Of a stretch of DNA of 64,000 nucleotides, positions 38,811-57,575 are shown piece by piece. Each line of letters begins with the position of its first letter. Positions within the stretch are counted from its first letter, which is position 1. Origin of the DNA: Flavobacterium sp. N502540 (GTDB lineage: Bacteria; Bacteroidota; Bacteroidia; Flavobacteriales; Flavobacteriaceae); assembly GCF_025947365.1 (NCBI RefSeq), contig NZ_CP110012.1, positions 1,178,001-1,242,000 on the forward strand, read 5' to 3'. The notes beneath the pieces are model-generated. The model did no database searches. It was not told where the DNA came from and was given only the letters and a program-made list of their open reading frames with translations. The position numbers and the translations under genes are program-made.

Positions 38811-39027
38811 GTTTTACGGATTAAATTTGGTTGTCACAGATTTCTTAAGATTGGATTGGGTTTTAAATCACATAAGAAATAAACCAATCCGTATAAATTT
38901 GCAAAATCTGTGTGCTATTTTTTCGCCACGAATTTACTTCGTCTGTTCACTGTCGCTCGAGTCACAAATTAATATCAAATCAATCCGCGTAAATCTGTTT
39001 AATCTGTAAAATCCGCGTGCCAACATT
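38811..39027. repeat. Intergenic block of AATCCG/AATCTG-type dispersed repeats
   Basis: Words such as CCAATCCGTATAAATTTGCA and CAATCCGCGTAAATCTGTTT alternate, in direct and inverted form, around CACGAATTTACTTCG. Similar text lies at 34586-34640, 41903-41940, 47856-47945 and 61027-61098. No gene is seen. Confidence 0.6.
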
Positions 39028-39029
39028 CA

Positions 39030-39359
39030 TTAATGACTGGAAACAAATTTCAACCCAATAATCGAAGCGATTAAAGTAGAAAGAAAAAATATTCGCCAAA
39101 AAGTAGCGGGTTCTTTAAAAATTAAGATTCCAACCAGGACGGTTCCAACGGCTCCAATTCCTGTCCAAACGGCATAGGCTGTTCCAATAGGCAGTACCTG
39201 TGTGGCCTTATACAGCAAAAACATGCTGATAGAAAGACAAACGAAGAAACCAATCATCCAATAAGTCGAAACCATTCCTGTTGTTTCTTTGGCTTTGCCC
39301 AGACAAGAGGCAAATGCAACTTCAAAAAGTCCTGCGATTACTAATAAAATCCAATTCAT
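39030..39359 (-). CDS. SMR-family multidrug/guanidinium exporter
   Basis: This 109-residue protein has four membrane helices and the essential Glu13 in VIAGLFEVAFASCLGKA. The SMR signatures LPIGTAYAVWTGIGAVGTVL and the last helix FLSTLIASIIGLKFVS are present. The sequence near Glu13 (LFEVAFASCLGKAK) is closer to the SugE/Gdx guanidinium exporters than to EmrE. It acts as an antiparallel dimer exchanging substrate for protons. Confidence 0.9.
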   Translation of the reverse strand: MNWILLVIAGLFEVAFASCLGKAKETTGMVSTYWMIGFFVCLSISMFLLYKATQVLPIGTAYAVWTGIGAVGTVLVGILIFKEPATFWRIFFLSTLIASIIGLKFVSSH

Positions 39360-39510
39360 TTTCTACGCCTTTTTAAATGAGATACAAATATGAGAAAACC
39401 TAGCGTAGAATGCTACAAAATATCCCATTTTTAGATTACGGGAGCAGTCCAATTGTGTTAACAAACCGTAAAAACCAGGCCGAATATTTATGATTTCGAG
39501 CACTTTTCAC

Positions 39511-39518
39511 TACATTTG
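39511..39518 (+). promoter_or_regulatory. -7 promoter box of the MMPL transporter gene
   Basis: TACATTTG lies 20 nt before the ATG at 39538 and excludes the longer frame from 39490. Confidence 0.75.
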
Positions 39519-39537
39519 CATCCATTTTACAAATTTT

Positions 39538-41904
39538 ATGAAAAACGCCGTACAAGTTGGATTTTGGGAAAAATTAGCCCGAATCATACTTAAAAATAGA
39601 ATTTCTATACTCGTTGGGGTCGCTGCCCTGACAATTTTCCTTGGTTACCAATGGAAAAACCTTTCCATGACTTATACCGAAGCAAACTTGCTTCCGAAAA
39701 ATCATATTGCAAATAAAGACTATCAAAAATTTCTGGATAAATTTGGCGAAGAAGGAAACCTGGTTGTAATTGGTTTTCAGGATAAAAAATTCTTCACACC
39801 AAAAAATTATGCTGCCTGGAATGAATTAATGACGGGTCTTAAAAAATCGAAAGAAGTAGATCTAGTAGTTTCCTTAAACGATTTAAAGAAACTGGAAAAA
39901 GATACCGTTAACGAAAAATTTGTTCTCGCTCCGTTCATCGATCAAAGCAAAGCAACAGATCCGGAATATTTAAAAAAGATACAATATGACTTGTTTCATA
40001 ATTTACCTTTTTACGAAGGATTGCTTTACAACAAAGAAAGCGGCAGTATCCGTTCAGCAATTTACATCAACAAAGCACTTGTAAACACTGCTGAAAGAAA
40101 AACATTTATTCTGGAAAATCTGGTTCCAAAAATTGATAAGTTCGAGAGAACCACAGGAATCGATTTGCGTGTTTCGGGAATGCCTTACATCAGAACGATC
40201 AATGCTGACAATATGAAAGGTGAAATCGGGCTTTTTATTGGCGCGGCATTATTAACAGTTTCTTTGATTTTCTTTTTCTTCTTCCGTTCGTACAGAGCTA
40301 CCTTTATCTCCATCTGTATTTTGATTGTTGGAGTAATCTGGTCTTTCGGAACTTTAGGATTATTTCATTATAAAATTACAATTCTAACTGCGATCATTCC
40401 GCCATTAATTATTGTAATCGGAATTACGAACTGTATTTTCCTGATCAATAAATACCAACAGGAAATCAAACTTCATAATAATCAGGCAAAGGCTTTACAG
40501 CGTATCATTTCGAAAATTGGAGTTTCGACTCTAATGACAAATTTAACGACAGCAATAGGTTTTGCAACGTTTATGATTACCGGAAACGATTTGCTTTTTG
40601 AATTTGGTTTGGTTACCTCTATCAATGTCATTTCTGTATACCTCCTGACGCTTTTAATTGTACCGATCATCTACAGTTTTATGTCGGTTCCGGGCGAAAA
40701 ACATTTGTACCATCTCACCAAAACATACATTTCAACCTTATTGGATTTTGTTGAAAATGTGGTAAAAAATAAACGAAAAGTAATCTATATCATTTATGGT
40801 TTATTATTAGCCTTCAGTGTTATTGGAGTTACACAAATGAAAGTTTCGGGAAGTTTAATTGGTGAAATGCCAAAAAGCGCCTCTTTCTTTAAGGATATCA
40901 TCTTCTACGAAAAAGAATTCAATGGTGTAATGCCCCTTGAGATTATGATTGATACCAAAAAGAAAAAGGGTGTCATGAAAGCCTCTACCATTCGCAAAAT
41001 GGATGAATTGCAGAACACCATCACAGAAATGCCTGAATTAGCGAAACCGGTTTCTATTGTAAATCTGGTGAAATATTCGAAACAGGCTTTCTATAACGGA
41101 AATCCGGAATATTATCAATTACCAACATCACAGGAACAGACTTTTATTTTGTCGTATGCTAAAAATGCTACCAAAAACAGCAAAGAAAATCTGATGAAAG
41201 CTTACGTAGATTCAACCGGACAATATGCCCGAATCACTACTTTCATGAAAGATATTGGTACGGATGAAATGGCTAAAGTGGAGAAAAAACTTCACAGCAA
41301 GATCGATGAAATTTTCCCGAAAGACCGTTATGAAGTTACTGTAACCGGAAAAGCATTAGTGTTTCAAAAAGGAACCTCTTATCTGGTTGATAATTTAATT
41401 GAATCTTTAATCTTTGCAATACTAGTAATTGCTGTATTGATGCTTTACTTGTTCCGATCGTTCAAAATGGTTTTTGCATCGGTAATTACGAATATTTTAC
41501 CGCTTTGTATTACTTCAGGACTCATGGGGTATTTTGGAATTCCGTTAAAACCTTCAACGATACTGGTATTTAGTATCGCTTTCGGAATCTCAGTTGATAA
41601 TGCGATTCAGTTTATGGCGAAGTACCATCATGATTTGTTGCAGAATAACGGAAAGGTAAAAAAATCAGTTTTTAGTGCTTTAAGAGAAACTGGAATCAGT
41701 ACTTTTTATACATCGGTAGTTTTGATCTTAGGATTTGCGACTTTCACGCTTTCCAGCTTCAGTGGAACCATCGCATTGGGAGGATTAATTTCCTGTACAT
41801 TGGCCTTCGCAATGTTTGCGAATCTATTGGTTTTACCTGCTTTGGTATTGACTTTTGAGAAAAAGAAAGCTAAGAAAGAGGATTTGGAGAATTTGCAAGG
41901 ATAA
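39538..41904 (+). CDS. MMPL/RND-superfamily transporter
   Basis: This 788-residue protein has two similar halves, each with a first helix, a large periplasmic loop and five more helices (first half LFIGAALLTVSLIFFFFFRS, second half LIFAILVIAVLMLYLFRS). GISVDNAIQFMAKYHHDL carries the conserved charged residues of proton relay in helix 4. The MMPL-like group exports lipids, hydrophobic compounds or hopanoids; the cargo is unknown. No membrane fusion protein or TolC lies nearby. Confidence 0.85.
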   Translation: MKNAVQVGFWEKLARIILKNRISILVGVAALTIFLGYQWKNLSMTYTEANLLPKNHIANKDYQKFLDKFGEEGNLVVIGFQDKKFFTPKNYAAWNELMTGLKKSKEVDLVVSLNDLKKLEKDTVNEKFVLAPFIDQSKATDPEYLKKIQYDLFHNLPFYEGLLYNKESGSIRSAIYINKALVNTAERKTFILENLVPKIDKFERTTGIDLRVSGMPYIRTINADNMKGEIGLFIGAALLTVSLIFFFFFRSYRATFISICILIVGVIWSFGTLGLFHYKITILTAIIPPLIIVIGITNCIFLINKYQQEIKLHNNQAKALQRIISKIGVSTLMTNLTTAIGFATFMITGNDLLFEFGLVTSINVISVYLLTLLIVPIIYSFMSVPGEKHLYHLTKTYISTLLDFVENVVKNKRKVIYIIYGLLLAFSVIGVTQMKVSGSLIGEMPKSASFFKDIIFYEKEFNGVMPLEIMIDTKKKKGVMKASTIRKMDELQNTITEMPELAKPVSIVNLVKYSKQAFYNGNPEYYQLPTSQEQTFILSYAKNATKNSKENLMKAYVDSTGQYARITTFMKDIGTDEMAKVEKKLHSKIDEIFPKDRYEVTVTGKALVFQKGTSYLVDNLIESLIFAILVIAVLMLYLFRSFKMVFASVITNILPLCITSGLMGYFGIPLKPSTILVFSIAFGISVDNAIQFMAKYHHDLLQNNGKVKKSVFSALRETGISTFYTSVVLILGFATFTLSSFSGTIALGGLISCTLAFAMFANLLVLPALVLTFEKKKAKKEDLENLQG

Positions 41905-54957: not shown

Positions 54958-55722
54958 CTATTTCTTAAACTGCTCTAAAGCATTTCTGCTAAAATCCGAC
55001 AAAACTAATTTTCCCGTTATAGAGGCACGCTCGACAAGTAAAGATCCCCAGTGTTCGGTTCCTTCCCAAATAATTTTCTTCATTTCGTATAAAGCTTCAG
55101 GATTATACAAACTTAACTGTTGAGCAAAATCCGCTACCGCTACATCTAAATTTTCAGCATTATGAATCTCTGTGAACAGTTTATTTTCTAATGCCCATGC
55201 CGCCGATTTCCATGCATGTGCTGCCAGGGTCATTTCGGCCATTGCAGCTTTTCCAATCTTACGCGAGACCGCGGGTTCAATCACAAACGGACCAATTCCG
55301 ATGGCCAGTTCCGACAATTTCACAGCACTTTCAGGAGTCGCAAAAACATAATCACAAGCCGAAATAATTCCGACACCACCACCAACTGCTTTTCCCTGAA
55401 CACGAGCCACAATAATTTTAGAACAATTTCGCATCGCGTTCAGCAAATGAGCAAAACCGGAGAAAAAGTGTGCTCCCTGTTGTTCATTTTTAACTGCTAA
55501 CAACTCGTCAAAAGAAGCACCTGAACAAAAAACTTTCGTCCCTAAACTTTGTAAAACAATAACCGAAACGGCTTTATTCTGACTTAGAGTATTAATTTCG
55601 GAAGTTAAACGATCTAATAATTGTCTTGGAAAAGAATTGCTGGCCGGATGCCCAAATTCAACTGTTGCAACAGCATTATGGTAAGTAGTCTGTAAAGAAC
55701 CTTCAAGTTTTTCTGCACTCAT
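54958..55722 (-). CDS. Enoyl-CoA hydratase/isomerase-family protein
   Basis: This 254-residue crotonase-fold protein has the oxyanion-hole strands (TKVFCSGASFDELLAVK and VQGKAVGGGVGIISACDYVF). The position of the catalytic Glu is not clear from the motif, so the reaction cannot be fixed; hydratase, isomerase and methylglutaconyl-CoA-like activities are possible. It is monocistronic, next to the tRNA array. Confidence 0.85.
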   Translation of the reverse strand: MSAEKLEGSLQTTYHNAVATVEFGHPASNSFPRQLLDRLTSEINTLSQNKAVSVIVLQSLGTKVFCSGASFDELLAVKNEQQGAHFFSGFAHLLNAMRNCSKIIVARVQGKAVGGGVGIISACDYVFATPESAVKLSELAIGIGPFVIEPAVSRKIGKAAMAEMTLAAHAWKSAAWALENKLFTEIHNAENLDVAVADFAQQLSLYNPEALYEMKKIIWEGTEHWGSLLVERASITGKLVLSDFSRNALEQFKK

Positions 55723-55827
55723 AAAAATAAATTTGATCGTAAAGTTACGGTTTTGAAAAATATTTTCATCGGAAGTGTTTTGAAATTTGCTTTTTGAAAA
55801 TTAATTAGCTTTATTTGCAATCACTTT

Positions 55828-55901
55828 GGGGGATTAGCTCATTTGGCTAGAGTATCCCGATGAAAAATCGGGAAAGTGATAGTTCGAATTTACATTCCCT
55901 A
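55828..55901 (+). pseudogene. Decayed tRNA-like copy (tRNA-Ala pseudogene)
   Basis: The first 27 nt (starting GGGGGATTAGCTCATTTGGC) are identical to the functional tRNA at 55916. The anticodon arm is replaced by TCCCGA-TGAAAAA-TCGGGA (6-bp stem, 7-nt loop). The T-loop TTCGAAT is kept but its stem (ATAG/TTACA) no longer pairs. The acceptor stem can still pair (GGGGGAT/ATTCCCT). Base 33 of a normal loop would be G rather than U. It is not a functional tRNA but may be transcribed in front of the real one, 14 nt away. Confidence 0.75.
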
Positions 55902-55915
55902 CAAACGAAATACAC

Positions 55916-55989
55916 GGGGGATTAGCTCATTTGGCTAGAGTACTTGCCTGGCAGGCAAGGGGTGACCGGTTCGAATCCGGTATTCTCCA
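55916..55989 (+). tRNA. tRNA-Ala (anticodon GGC)
   Basis: A full 74-nt cloverleaf is seen. The acceptor pairs GGGGGAT/ATTCTCC with discriminator A, including the G3-U70 wobble that identifies alanine tRNA. The D-arm is GCTC/GAGT, the anticodon arm CTTGC-CTGGCAG-GCAAG with anticodon GGC, and the T-arm ACCGG-TTCGAAT-CCGGT. CCA is not encoded. It is followed by a hairpin terminator and then by three tandem GIY-YIG units that repeat its 3' part. Confidence 0.95.
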
Positions 55990-56003
55990 CTAAAGTTTTC
56001 ATA

Positions 56004-56036
56004 AAAAATACCCAAACGTACGTTTGGGTATTTTTT
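56004..56036 (+). terminator. tRNA-Ala terminator (array copy 1)
   Basis: AAATACCCAAACGTACGTTT is the left part of a perfect palindrome ending GGGTATTTTTT. It lies 15 nt after the tRNA 3' end. The final TATTTTTTG resembles a -7 box for the nuclease gene. Confidence 0.85.
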
Positions 56037-56049
56037 GTTTATAGCCATT

Positions 56050-56298
56050 ATGTTCTACACTTATATCATATACTCAAAAGCGCTTAACAAATATTATATC
56101 GGTTCCTGTCAGGATGTTGAAAAACGACTTCAGGATCATTTAAACAGCAGAAGTAATTACACAAAAGTTGCCAAAGATTGGGTACTAAAATATTATGAAA
56201 CTTTTCCAACCAGAAGTGAAGCCTGCAAAAGAGAATTACAAATTAAGAAAATGAAAAGCCGAAAATATATCGAAACCCTAATTGAAACAAAAGGCTAG
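56050..56298 (+). CDS. GIY-YIG nuclease, array copy 1
   Basis: This 82-residue protein is a stand-alone GIY-YIG domain (YhbQ/COG2827 type). Catalytic residues visible are Tyr5 (TYIIYSK), Tyr16 in YYIGSC, Arg26 (EKRLQDH), His30 and Glu62 (KRELQIKK). These enzymes nick or cut DNA with one metal ion; this copy has all key residues. The ATG is 13 nt after the terminator, so it may use its own promoter. The last codons AAA GGC TAG run into the following tRNA 3' piece, so its final Gly and stop come from the tRNA D-loop. It differs from copies 2 and 3 at a few sites (for example Trp-Val-Leu, where they have Trp-Glu-Leu). Confidence 0.88.
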   Translation: MFYTYIIYSKALNKYYIGSCQDVEKRLQDHLNSRSNYTKVAKDWVLKYYETFPTRSEACKRELQIKKMKSRKYIETLIETKG

Positions 56299-56348
56299 AG
56301 TATCCCGATGCATCGGGAAGGTGATCGGTTCGAATCCGATATTCTCCA
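56293..56348 (+). pseudogene. tRNA 3' piece A with palindromic anticodon arm
   Basis: It runs from the D-loop GGCTAGAG to the acceptor ATTCTCCA. The anticodon arm is the 16-bp perfect palindrome TCCCGATGCATCGGGA. The T-stem is ATCGG/CCGAT, fully paired but different from the functional tRNA. The 5' acceptor half and D-stem are absent. Confidence 0.85.
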
Positions 56349-56361
56349 CTAAAGTTTTCAT

Positions 56362-56394
56362 AAAAAATACCCAAACGTACGTTTGGGTATTTTT
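56362..56394 (+). terminator. Array terminator copy 2
   Basis: The hairpin is the same as at 56004, but the tail reads TATTTTTG, a perfect TAnnTTTG -7 match, 14 nt before the second nuclease ATG. Confidence 0.8.
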
Positions 56395-56407
56395 GTTTAT
56401 AGCCATT

Positions 56408-56656
56408 ATGTTCTACACTTATATCATATACTCAAAAGCGCTTGACAAATATTATATCGGTTCCTGTCAGAATGTTGAAAAACGACTTCAGGATCATTTA
56501 AACAGCAGAAGTAATTACACAAAAGTTGCCAAAGATTGGGAACTAAAATATTATGAAACTTTTCCAACCAGAAGTGAAGCCTGCAAAAGAGAATTACAAA
56601 TTAAGAAAATGAAAAGCCGAAAATATATCGAAACCCTAATTGAAACAAAAGGCTAG
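56408..56656 (+). CDS. GIY-YIG nuclease, array copy 2
   Basis: This 82-residue copy is almost identical to copy 1, with ALDKYY in place of ALNKYY, CQNVEK in place of CQDVEK, and DWELK. All five catalytic-type residues remain. The reading frame is open upstream through the terminator and tRNA piece A to 56282. That longer frame is not credible because it would translate tRNA and terminator sequence. The stop again lies in GGCTAG of the next tRNA piece. Confidence 0.88.
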   Translation: MFYTYIIYSKALDKYYIGSCQNVEKRLQDHLNSRSNYTKVAKDWELKYYETFPTRSEACKRELQIKKMKSRKYIETLIETKG

Positions 56657-56706
56657 AGTATCCCGATGCATCGGGAAGGTGATCGGTTCGAATCCGATAT
56701 TCTCCA
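56651..56706 (+). pseudogene. tRNA 3' piece B with palindromic anticodon arm
   Basis: It is identical to piece A, including TCCCGATGCATCGGGA and the ATCGG/CCGAT T-stem. Confidence 0.85.
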
Positions 56707-56718
56707 CTAAAGTTTTTA

Positions 56719-56753
56719 TAAAAAATACCCAAACGTATGTTTGGGTATTTTTT
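56719..56753 (+). terminator. Array terminator copy 3
   Basis: The hairpin has one change in the loop (ACGTATGT), otherwise as copies 1 and 2, followed by TTTTTTG. Confidence 0.8.
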
Positions 56754-56766
56754 GTTTATAGCCATT

Positions 56767-57015
56767 ATGTTCTACACTTATATCATATACTCAAAAGCGC
56801 TTAACAAATATTATATCGGTTCCTGTCAGGATGTTGAAAAACGACTTCAGGATCATTTAAACAGCAGAAGCAATTACACAAAAGTTGCCAAAGATTGGGA
56901 ACTAAAATATTATGAAACTTTTCCAACCAGAAGTGAAGCCAGCAAAAGAGAATTACAAATTAAGAAAATGAAAAGCCGAAAATATATCGAAACCCTAATT
57001 GAAACAAAAGGCTAG
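56767..57015 (+). CDS. GIY-YIG nuclease, array copy 3
   Basis: This 82-residue copy has EASKRE in place of EACKRE, which keeps the catalytic Glu and removes a non-catalytic Cys. All active-site residues are present. All three copies being intact argues that protein function is selected or that the amplification is very recent. Its stop is in GGCTAG of piece C. Confidence 0.88.
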   Translation: MFYTYIIYSKALNKYYIGSCQDVEKRLQDHLNSRSNYTKVAKDWELKYYETFPTRSEASKRELQIKKMKSRKYIETLIETKG

Positions 57016-57065
57016 AGTATCCCGATGCATCGGGAAGGTGACCGGTTCGAATCCGGTATTCTCCA
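57010..57065 (+). pseudogene. tRNA 3' piece C with palindromic anticodon arm
   Basis: It has the palindromic anticodon arm of pieces A and B, but the T-stem ACCGG/CCGGT of the functional tRNA. It closes the array and is followed by a different terminator. Confidence 0.85.
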
Positions 57066-57072
57066 CAAAAAA

Positions 57073-57107
57073 AAAACCGTATTACTTCATTGGAATACGG
57101 TTTTTTT
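57073..57107 (+). terminator. Terminator closing the tRNA/GIY-YIG array
   Basis: AAAACCGTATT pairs with AATACGGTTTT around ACTTCATTGG, with T-runs on the plus strand and A-rich sequence on the other side. It could also end the minus-strand small gene at 57124. Confidence 0.8.
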
Positions 57108-57123
57108 ATTTTGAAAGATTTTT

Positions 57124-57300
57124 TTAGTGTTCATTAGCAGAGTCTTCGGCATCTACTCTTTCTTTCTCGGCTTTCTTAAAATCATTATTTAATAAATCCG
57201 TTAGTTTCTTTTTCTCTTTCTGATTTTTTTTGATTGTAAATACGATTACAACGATTACAACGACCGCTACAATTCCAATCACTACCCAATTGATTTCCAT
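57124..57300 (-). CDS. 58-residue single-pass membrane protein
   Basis: The small protein has an N-terminal helix (INWVVIGIVAVVVIVVIVFT) followed by a highly charged cytoplasmic tail (KKNQKEKKKLTDLLNNDFKK to EDSANEH). A stop directly follows. The clean hydrophobic start and charged tail suggest a real gene. It is convergent with the array; a shared terminator lies between. The function is unknown. Confidence 0.65.
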   Translation of the reverse strand: MEINWVVIGIVAVVVIVVIVFTIKKNQKEKKKLTDLLNNDFKKAEKERVDAEDSANEH

Positions 57301-57575
57301 AACTTTAATTTTGAGTTAAAAATAAAAATTTAGAAGTTTTGCAACATTACCAAAAGGTTAAACCTTAGCCTTATAAAAATGCAGAGAGGAGAAATTTGCT
57401 GACAAAGAACAATCTCTCTTGCCTAATATTACATTCTTTATCAAAAAGATTGCAGTCTGCTACTTTCATGAAATACAGAAACCAGACCTATAAATAAAAG
57501 TTAAATGTATCAGAAGGAGAGAGTTCGGAATTGTTTTTGTTAGGTTTAGGCAGTACTACTTTTAAACACCAAAAA

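Follow-up and report, generated by a model that had tools for sequence, protein, structure and literature searches.

Introduction

Among the closest described counterparts of the element considered here is SegB, a GIY-YIG enzyme of T-even phages, which is reported to cut in tRNA genes of T6 and to drive 718-bp tandem repeats of tRNA-Tyr and segB that need phage recombination genes (PMC13096335). In the present work, we analyze a locus in a 64,000-nucleotide stretch of Flavobacterium sp. N502540 (contig NZ_CP110012.1, positions 1,178,001 to 1,242,000; hereafter the window), where an intact tRNA-Ala(GGC) gene is followed by three repeated units, each containing a terminator-like repeat, a gene for a small GIY-YIG nuclease, and a tRNA piece in which a palindrome stands in place of the anticodon arm. 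On comparison with related loci, we propose, with a probability of roughly 60%, that this is an integrase-less, site-specific mobile or amplifying element of tRNA genes, the nuclease of which would act at the palindrome/tRNA-arm site, with host recombination operating through the tRNA-derived arms. SegB shares with this element the GIY-YIG enzyme beside tRNA genes and the recombination-driven tandem repeats of tRNA and nuclease. It differs in being a phage gene, and the accessible part of the source mentions neither palindrome-tagged tRNA copies nor a unit composed of tRNA fragment, terminator, and nuclease (PMC13096335).

A small lone enzyme gene accompanied by palindromes, together with palindrome copies lacking the enzyme, is also characteristic of the repetitive extragenic palindromic (REP) sequences and their REP-associated tyrosine transposases (RAYT, or TnpA-REP). 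The RAYT enzymes are described as tyrosine (HUH) transposases, whereas the present enzyme is of the GIY-YIG type and its palindrome lies inside tRNA-derived sequence; no HUH tyrosine transposase was found in the three open reading frames (ORFs) of the array, where PF01541 (GIY-YIG) is the sole Pfam family matched. REP palindromes are reported to lie between genes in more than 100 copies, a number well above the 25 sites found in the present genome for the arm pattern TCCCGATN{0,14}ATCGGGA, a count that covers arms of this pattern only.

Integrase-borne elements at tRNA genes, such as prophages, integrative and conjugative elements, and islands, are flanked by a duplicated 3' part of the tRNA and keep the tRNA intact. 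The duplication of the tRNA 3' part at the far end is a feature shared by the present locus, but its units are only ~300-420 bp long with one ORF of ~80 amino acids (aa), and an integrase element was ruled out, as no such ORF is present on the array. Some tRNA genes contain group I introns that carry GIY-YIG homing enzymes; these introns have the type of enzyme in common with the present element, and sites in the anticodon region are known places of introns. Unlike in such introns, the intact tRNA here is uninterrupted, and a scan of positions 55400-57500 with Rfam 15 (E ≤ 0.1) gave two tRNA matches above gathering, three small-RNA matches far below it, and no intron RNA, which rules out a group I intron at the window locus. 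The UPF0213 and SLX1 proteins, the best profile matches of the nuclease among solved structures, are encoded by ordinary chromosomal genes that are not known to form tRNA units. No description of such an element came up in searches of the open-access full texts of PubMed Central, and this negative extends no further than that collection, which does not cover preprints and subscription papers. The presence of such elements beside different tRNA genes in other bacteria suggests an undescribed kind of mobile DNA, which departs from each known mobile-element family considered in at least one of the defining features tested.

Architecture of the tRNA-Ala Array

The three units follow the intact tRNA head to tail at spacings of 358 and 359 nt, each ORF having a PF01541 match (Table 1). 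This confirms the description given by a sequence-only reading of the locus, namely a tRNA-Ala followed by three units of about 359 bp with intact GIY-YIG genes and closed by a fourth tRNA 3' piece, the end of which lies at 57066. The absence of an integrase or recombinase and of an intron structure, also claimed there, holds as well, since the GIY-YIG frames are the only ORFs of at least 60 aa on 55916-57066 and Rfam finds no intron at this locus. As for the tRNA piece of each unit, that reading was right about the 3' part, but the piece is not plain tRNA. It consists of 10 nt of the D-loop, the perfect 16-nt palindrome TCCCGATGCATCGGGA in the position of the anticodon arm, and bases 45-75 of the tRNA, the TAG stop codon of each GIY-YIG ORF falling within the D-loop piece GGCTAGAGTA. 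The palindrome had been overlooked in that reading, as had a further tRNA-Ala-derived copy upstream of the intact gene, in which the 3' half is decayed and a palindrome occupies the equivalent site.

The coding parts of the three units (246 nt) differ pairwise at 3, 3, and 4 nt. An assembly artefact is unlikely, because the units differ from each other, the genome is a single contig of 5,409,051 bp (5.41 Mb), and similar arrays are found in other assemblies. The stretch TTTATTTGCAATCACTTT upstream of the locus is presumably a promoter, judging from a Bacteroidota motif. In what follows, L numbers denote loci and G numbers compared genomes, G000 being the label of the genome of the window in locus coordinates.

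Table 1. Features of the tRNA-Ala locus, in window coordinates
Feature	Position	Strand	Basis
Promoter-like stretch TTTATTTGCAATCACTTT	55810..55827	+	same letters directly 5' of intact tRNA-Ala in empty relative G004 (L087)
tRNA-Ala-derived copy: full 5' half, palindrome for anticodon arm, decayed 3' half	55828..55902	+	ARAGORN 'tRNA-Phe(aaa)'; Rfam tRNA 30.8 bits (gathering 29)
Palindrome TCCCGATGAAAAATCGGGA of upstream copy	55855..55873	+	
Intact tRNA-Ala(GGC)	55916..55990	+	ARAGORN; Rfam RF00005 57.3 bits
Terminator-like inverted repeat, unit 1	56003..56036	+	inverted-repeat listing (I5)
GIY-YIG ORF, unit 1 (82 aa)	56050..56298	+	PF01541 E 6e-17
tRNA-Ala D-loop piece GGCTAGAGTA, unit 1, overlapping stop codon	56293..56302	+	
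Palindrome TCCCGATGCATCGGGA in place of anticodon arm, unit 1	56303..56318	+	
tRNA-Ala 3' part (tRNA 45-75), unit 1	56319..56349	+	
Terminator-like inverted repeat, unit 2	56362..56394	+	inverted-repeat listing (I6)
GIY-YIG ORF, unit 2	56408..56656	+	PF01541 E 4.8e-17
tRNA-Ala D-loop piece, unit 2	56651..56660	+	
Palindrome, unit 2	56661..56676	+	
tRNA-Ala 3' part, unit 2	56677..56707	+	
Terminator-like inverted repeat, unit 3	56720..56753	+	inverted-repeat listing (I10)
GIY-YIG ORF, unit 3	56767..57015	+	PF01541 E 2.1e-17
tRNA-Ala D-loop piece, unit 3	57010..57019	+	
Palindrome, unit 3	57020..57035	+	
Last tRNA-Ala 3' part	57036..57066	+	end taken as right border of the element, by analogy with shared-block ends of intragenomic copies
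Host terminator-like repeat, unlike unit terminators	57067..57113	+	similar sequence (by eye) directly 3' of intact tRNA-Ala in empty relative G014 (L086); inverted-repeat listing (I4)

Position and Arms of the Palindrome

The palindrome was surveyed at 122 loci with 172 units, each with an ARAGORN tRNA at most 260 nt upstream (one record is counted twice through a second ARAGORN call, L226). A palindrome with the tRNA's own sequence on both sides was found at 97 of these loci and in 131 of the units, and its position is nearly fixed for each tRNA type. Expressed as the tRNA base before and the tRNA base after it, the site is 27→45 for tRNA-Ala (12 of 13, the Chloroflexi one having 26→44), 28→45 or 46 for tRNA-Val(TAC) (45 of 49), 28→46 for tRNA-Pro(TGG) (9 of 9), 27→45 for tRNA-Arg (3 of 3), 37→48 for tRNA-Met (7 of 8), 38→51 for tRNA-Asp (4 of 4), and 56→62 for tRNA-Phe (2 of 2), while tRNA-Asn has 52→58 in two cases and 45→51 in two. 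Together with Leu and Lys, these eight are among the tRNA hosts having the palindrome in tRNA context. Such a palindrome follows the last unit at 88 of 117 loci, which is more than chance: stretches taken 300-580 nt downstream gave one in 6 of 115 cases, and base-shuffled stretches in 1 of 117.

Most arms fall into a single sequence family (TCCCGAT, TTCCGAT, TCCCGC, TCACGC, TCCGCC, and TCTCGTC), TGGCGC and CTCCGAC being also found, and the TCCCG... family recurs in other phyla and at other sites. The dyad symmetry is kept, since both arms change together, as read from the lists. That units start precisely in the D-loop, as the sequence-only reading had it, does not hold throughout the family; what recurs is the site of the palindrome, along with the 3' end of the tRNA. 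Of the support it had called for, the empty sites in relatives were borne out, while the constant border in the D-loop was not.

At L017, L024, L040, L043, L044, L045, L250, and L262, the T arm of the piece contains a second palindrome, followed at some of these loci by a tail (e.g., CAGGCTAT or CAAGCTAT); it thus seems that palindromes replace tRNA arms repeatedly. In three contigs from metagenome-assembled genomes (MAGs; L258, L260, and L263, the last two titled Patescibacteria-group), the tag consists of two palindromes joined by a stretch containing GGATCC or CATCC, beside tRNA 5' halves.

The Nuclease

The three ORFs of the window score 62.1-63.6 bits against PF01541 (cut-off 22.6), which spans residues 1-73 of the 82-aa nuclease. 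Residues R26 and E62 are invariant in the 23 rows of the alignment, and Y5 and Y16 are conserved in at least 90% of them; the catalytic roles of the conserved Tyr, Arg, and Glu residues are assumed from I-TevI. By profile, the nearest solved structures are UPF0213 proteins (1zg2, E 1.4e-12; 1ywl, E 4.9e-11), followed by SLX1 (7wme, E 1.5e-5). No NCBIfam model scored above its cut-off for six representative nucleases, TIGR01453 giving weak matches of 27.4, 21.2, and 20.9 bits in three of the six, below its cut-off of 56.05. Of four proteins searched, only that of the window matched the PADLOC entry HEase (9.7e-5) and three homing endonucleases of PHROG (4.3e-6 to 8e-4).

Purifying selection acts on the nuclease in four of the five tRNA groups compared, with median ratios of nonsynonymous to synonymous substitution rates (dN/dS) of 0.11 for Ala (19 pairs), 0.11 for Val (597 pairs), 0.09 for Met (39 pairs), and 0.18 for Asp (11 pairs). 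These values refer to pairs with dS of 0.15-1.5, the divergent rows L016, L038, L246, L250, L259, L265, and L268 having been excluded beforehand. Decayed nuclease copies with stops also occur.

The nuclease clade tracks the tRNA type. Mapped on the nuclease tree, the tRNA type changes 21 times, the minimum possible being 17 and the shuffled mean 75; with the phylum loci included (and 36 Val rows randomly dropped), there are 35 changes, for a minimum of 23 and a shuffled mean of 98.5. The trees were built on ~80 columns, and many of their forks are unresolved. Within one tRNA, separate nuclease clades correspond to separate palindrome sites, both in tRNA-Asn (52→58, 45→51, and 57→61) and in tRNA-Asp (38→51, 50/51→59/60, and, in one row, 27→43). 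The two Pro clades use one site with different arms, TCCCGC/TCACGC and TCCCGAT, respectively.

Signs of Mobility and Polarity of the Arrays

The comparison of occupied and empty sites involved 437 unequal pairs, and since most of the pairs listed are background arising from repeats and from paralogous tRNA loci, we rely on one clean pair. This is formed by the occupied L224 of Flavobacterium hibernum and the syntenic empty L274 of genome G123, with identities of 84% over 909 nt upstream and 93% over 895 nt downstream. The distance between the flanks is 576 nt in the former and 197 nt in the latter, and the surplus of 379 nt corresponds to terminator, nuclease, tRNA piece, palindrome, and tRNA 3' part, the tRNA-Val genes of the two loci being identical. 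Empty tRNA-Ala sites among the matches listed are L077, L079, L080, L084, L086, L087, and L088; at L078 the upstream tagged copy is present and the nuclease is absent.

Near-identical copies in unrelated flanks of one genome are found in five pairs. L228 and L231 (Flavobacterium sp. 11), ~42 kb apart on the same contig, share 738 bp at 99%, and L044 and L045 share ~400 bp at 96%, both blocks ending exactly at the tRNA 3' end, while the block of L174 and L185 (462 bp, 97.8%) ends two bases past it. The blocks of L016 and L038 (522 bp, 96.6%) and of L163 and L164 (~400 bp, 88-89%) continue into a terminator.

Typical arrays have one intact tRNA at one end, with palindrome-tagged tRNA pieces between the units. 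The tRNA comes first in the arrays described so far (3'-type) and last in mirror (5'-type) arrays, which have units composed of a tRNA 5' part, one or more palindromes, a short tRNA stretch, and the GIY-YIG gene. Mirror arrays were found at tRNA-Arg(ACG) (L339, three units), tRNA-Ser(TGA) (L341 and L344, three units each), tRNA-Ser(GCT) (L356), and tRNA-Pro (L322). At L322, tRNA bases 1-28 are shared exactly, and after the palindrome the tRNA resumes near base 46 (by eye), which is the site of the 3'-type Pro units; its nuclease groups in the main Pro clade.

We consider it very probable that the element is mobile and addressed to tRNA genes. Several tRNA types, empty sites, intragenomic copies, and purifying selection support the suggestion of the sequence-only reading that a tRNA-linked selfish element is present with a GIY-YIG nuclease as its sole enzyme. 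Its further suggestion, that this nuclease cuts a tRNA gene, is a possibility, and a simple homing cut is disfavored by the identity of the intact tRNA in occupied and empty genomes (see below).

Other Loci in the Same Genome

Eleven PF01541 matches are present in the genome of the window, three in frames of 462-622 aa and eight in frames of only 97-169 aa. All but one of these eight are linked to tRNA genes, three to tRNA-Ala, three to tRNA-Val(TAC), and one to tRNA-Asp(GTC), so that a single genome contains three loci of one anatomy, which we count in support of the proposed element. The tRNA-Val(TAC) units are 375-376 nt long and have the palindrome TTCCGATTCTCATCGGAA in place of the anticodon arm, while TCTCGTCTAGGGACGAGA replaces the 3' anticodon stem and the variable loop at the tRNA-Asp(GTC) locus.

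Tagged copies without nuclease are also present. Beside tRNA-Arg(tct) there are 4 + 3 of them by pattern, tRNA-Arg-derived by eye (L105 and L106; G000:C1:31000-33500 and 39000-41000), six of which ARAGORN calls tRNA-Gly(tcc); these calls are probably spurious and due to the element. Six further nuclease-less tagged copies, tRNA-Pro-like, adjoin an intact tRNA-Pro. The 25 sites of the arm pattern given above comprise 17 in tRNA-derived copies, three terminator-like sites (by eye), and five others. The palindrome TCCCGATGCATCGGGA is found outside tRNA context too (L111, L113, and L114), twice in L113 (G000:C1:4175600-4178400) between CATAGAAACATAG and CTATGTTTCTATG.

Distribution across Genomes and tRNA Types

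With the 23-row profile, a match was found in 122 of 150 genomes of the genus (E ≤ 1e-8), including a clade without tRNA linkage. At the phylum level (E ≤ 1e-18), 119 of 296 genomes gave a match, as did 73 of 139 genera; these are counts of protein matches, tRNA linkage having been examined on the fetched loci alone. Among 233 distinct nuclease matches, 119 have an ARAGORN tRNA at most 150 bp upstream, the strand of tRNA and nuclease being the same in 118 cases, and the remainder include later array units, contig ends, and the non-linked clade. The loci were collected by similarity to tRNA-linked nucleases, and the ratio 119/233 is therefore no unbiased linkage rate.

Of 27 loci that came first from the phylum search (five of the window's genus), 23 have an ARAGORN tRNA at most 260 nt upstream, and 17 of these 23 show the palindrome in tRNA context. 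At L322 and L333, an intact tRNA-Pro lies 15 and 12 nt downstream of the nuclease, respectively, and no tagged piece was seen in the 46 nt of upstream sequence of L333. The array of L319 is truncated on the left, its longer stretch L345 opening with tRNA-Met, and no tRNA was found on the fetched stretch of L312. Among 19 more stretches, chosen mostly for arrays (L353 excluded), the tRNA is upstream in 13 and downstream in four (L339, L341, L344, and L356), L350 has a tRNA piece only, and L352 is a transfer-messenger RNA (tmRNA) site. In the latter, an intact tmRNA (1136-1498, Rfam RF00023) is followed ~15 nt downstream by the nuclease and then by a second tmRNA 3' piece, which has an insert in the T arm (by eye).

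Outside Bacteroidota, records with the same anatomy bear the titles Armatimonadetes (L255, two units), Acidobacteria (L262), and Chloroflexi (L265); the mirrored anatomy is present in a record titled Candidatus Giovannonibacteria (L263). The taxonomy of these loci hangs on binning, because the records are MAGs. At L253, L258, L260, and L266, a tRNA is nearby and the tagged copy is less clear. No relative was found in two viral-contig scans for a phage origin, a weak negative obtained with Val- and Ala-type queries only.

The arrays of L040 (three full nuclease copies and fragments) and L049 (six copies) have a tRNA-Pro-like 3' piece. The first feature of each array is a truncated tRNA-Pro-like 3' end, and the stretches upstream of it, which contain CCTATTC...GAATAGG, are related to each other; neither an intact tRNA nor a tmRNA was found on their fetched stretches. 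A second clade of small GIY-YIG genes comprises L008/L011 (G000:C1:3213503-3213742), L030, L032, L033, L034, L036, L054, L056, L057, L058, and L059. No tRNA was found on the fetched stretches of this clade, which sits amid interspersed repeats, among them TTTGTCATTTCGACGAAGGAGAAATC and GTCATGCTGAACTTGTTTCAGCATCT; the repeats on either side of the gene are inverted in several cases (by eye), somewhat like those around RAYT genes among REPs. It is possible that this repeat-associated clade represents a sister system.

Proposed Mechanism

The unit of the proposed element would be composed of the tRNA 3' part (B), the terminator, the GIY-YIG gene, an internal tRNA piece (A''), and the palindrome. 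Its anatomy and the signs of its mobility are taken from the sequences, while the enzymology is what we infer. Read-through from the tRNA promoter would yield the small UPF0213/SLX1-like nuclease, which would nick or cut at the palindrome, at the tRNA arm in whose place it stands, or at both. Once freed, the unit may be linear, or a circle in which A'', palindrome, and B form a tRNA-like attachment site, and would pair with a tRNA gene via its tRNA-derived arms and be taken up by homologous recombination of the host. The order intact tRNA, nuclease, tagged piece would result from a crossover 3' of the palindrome, and the mirror order from one 5' of it. Arrays would arise from repeated insertion or unequal crossing-over, and loss of the nuclease gene would leave palindrome-only arrays. 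The tRNA would thus provide promoter, homology, and an indispensable address. That the palindrome is the nuclease's own site is a tentative assignment, which we hold to be somewhat less probable than its opposite.

A number of observations weigh against the proposal. No circle, cut, or transposition event has been observed, the comparison being one of assembled sequences. The intact tRNA genes show no recoding in either of the two comparisons (G000 vs G019 and L224 vs L274), so that recoding was dropped as a candidate for what spares them from the nuclease. The search rule failed to give a palindrome at 25 of the 122 loci, and among the 97 positive loci a few are likely false finds (L173, L214, L246, L260, and L266). 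For some arrays, ARAGORN reported no tRNA on the stretch fetched (e.g., L040, L044, L049, L154, L155, L164, L176, and L231), and the Pro group has a dN/dS of 0.55 (six pairs). The concordance of nuclease clade and tRNA type could stem from vertical inheritance at one locus, and the co-variation of clade and palindrome, although consistent with recognition of the palindrome arm by the nuclease, represents co-inheritance and no proof of recognition, because both lie in one unit.

In an alternative scenario of classical free-standing homing, the empty tRNA gene would be cut at the palindrome site and repaired from an occupied copy, which would insert the unit, the palindrome shielding the tRNA piece of the element. 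Such homing has a strong precedent in SegB (PMC13096335), empty sites exist, and it would fit the different palindrome sites used by different nuclease clades within tRNA-Asn and tRNA-Asp. However, in both comparisons occupied genome and empty relative have the same intact tRNA sequence, and four genomes checked hold, besides a Val-linked nuclease, another intact, nuclease-free tRNA-Val (G005, L042/L295; G068, L132/L270; G094, L121/L297; G109, L120/L283), such that a strong cutter would cut its own host. The occupied allele also keeps its tRNA uninterrupted, where homing would abolish the target, an argument valid only if the target lies within the tRNA, and the extent of PF01541 leaves no space in the 82 residues for a separate DNA-binding domain. 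We regard homing as unlikely.

Passive amplification, in which tRNA hairpins would cause replication slippage and so duplicate tRNA pieces along with any neighboring DNA, template switching would create the palindromes, and a GIY-YIG repair nuclease would be a mere passenger, appears rather improbable. Hairpins are indeed possible from tRNA arms and palindromes alike, the structure-specific SLX1 is among the nearest solved relatives by profile, and palindrome-only arrays exist; but a passenger does not account for one nuclease type being carried at many tRNA types, for the TCCCG... arms recurring in other phyla and sites, for the purifying selection in four of the five groups, or for the copies in unrelated flanks. 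That same selection, as well as the conserved linkage to tRNA, would be expected if the locus benefited the host, with the nuclease or the tagged pieces regulating or guarding the tRNA (e.g., against a tRNA-cutting defence or phage) and the arrays being dosage variants, and the amplification of phage SegB and tRNA-Tyr is described as serving anti-defence (PMC13096335). The distribution argues otherwise, being patchy, with the same tRNA empty in relatives, many tRNA types involved, and decayed copies with stops, and the 3'-type tagged pieces cannot be tRNAs, because the tRNA 5' end is lacking. A host-beneficial locus is very improbable in our assessment. A type III toxin-antitoxin system, with repeats, a terminator, and a nuclease as its parts, was considered as a further candidate.

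The proposal of an integrase-less mobile element may be extended to a multi-phylum class of tRNA and tmRNA parasites, in which a lone 80-residue GIY-YIG nuclease would serve as transposase, acting on a palindrome put by it in the place of a tRNA arm and borrowing the tRNA gene as promoter, homology, and address while leaving a working tRNA, with the repeat-linked GIY-YIG genes as a sister branch that uses other interspersed repeats. To this wider picture, we give slightly less than even odds.

Implications

If true, the element would be a very small autonomous mobile element of ~300-420 bp per unit, widespread in Bacteroidota and apparently undescribed, and GIY-YIG would join the enzymes able to move DNA by themselves. 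It would also account for odd tRNA pseudogenes and false tRNA calls, such as the 'tRNA-Gly(tcc)' arrays, and could be a source of tiny site-specific insertion parts. Essential tRNA genes would become addresses, with a cut site that is directly testable at a defined palindrome.

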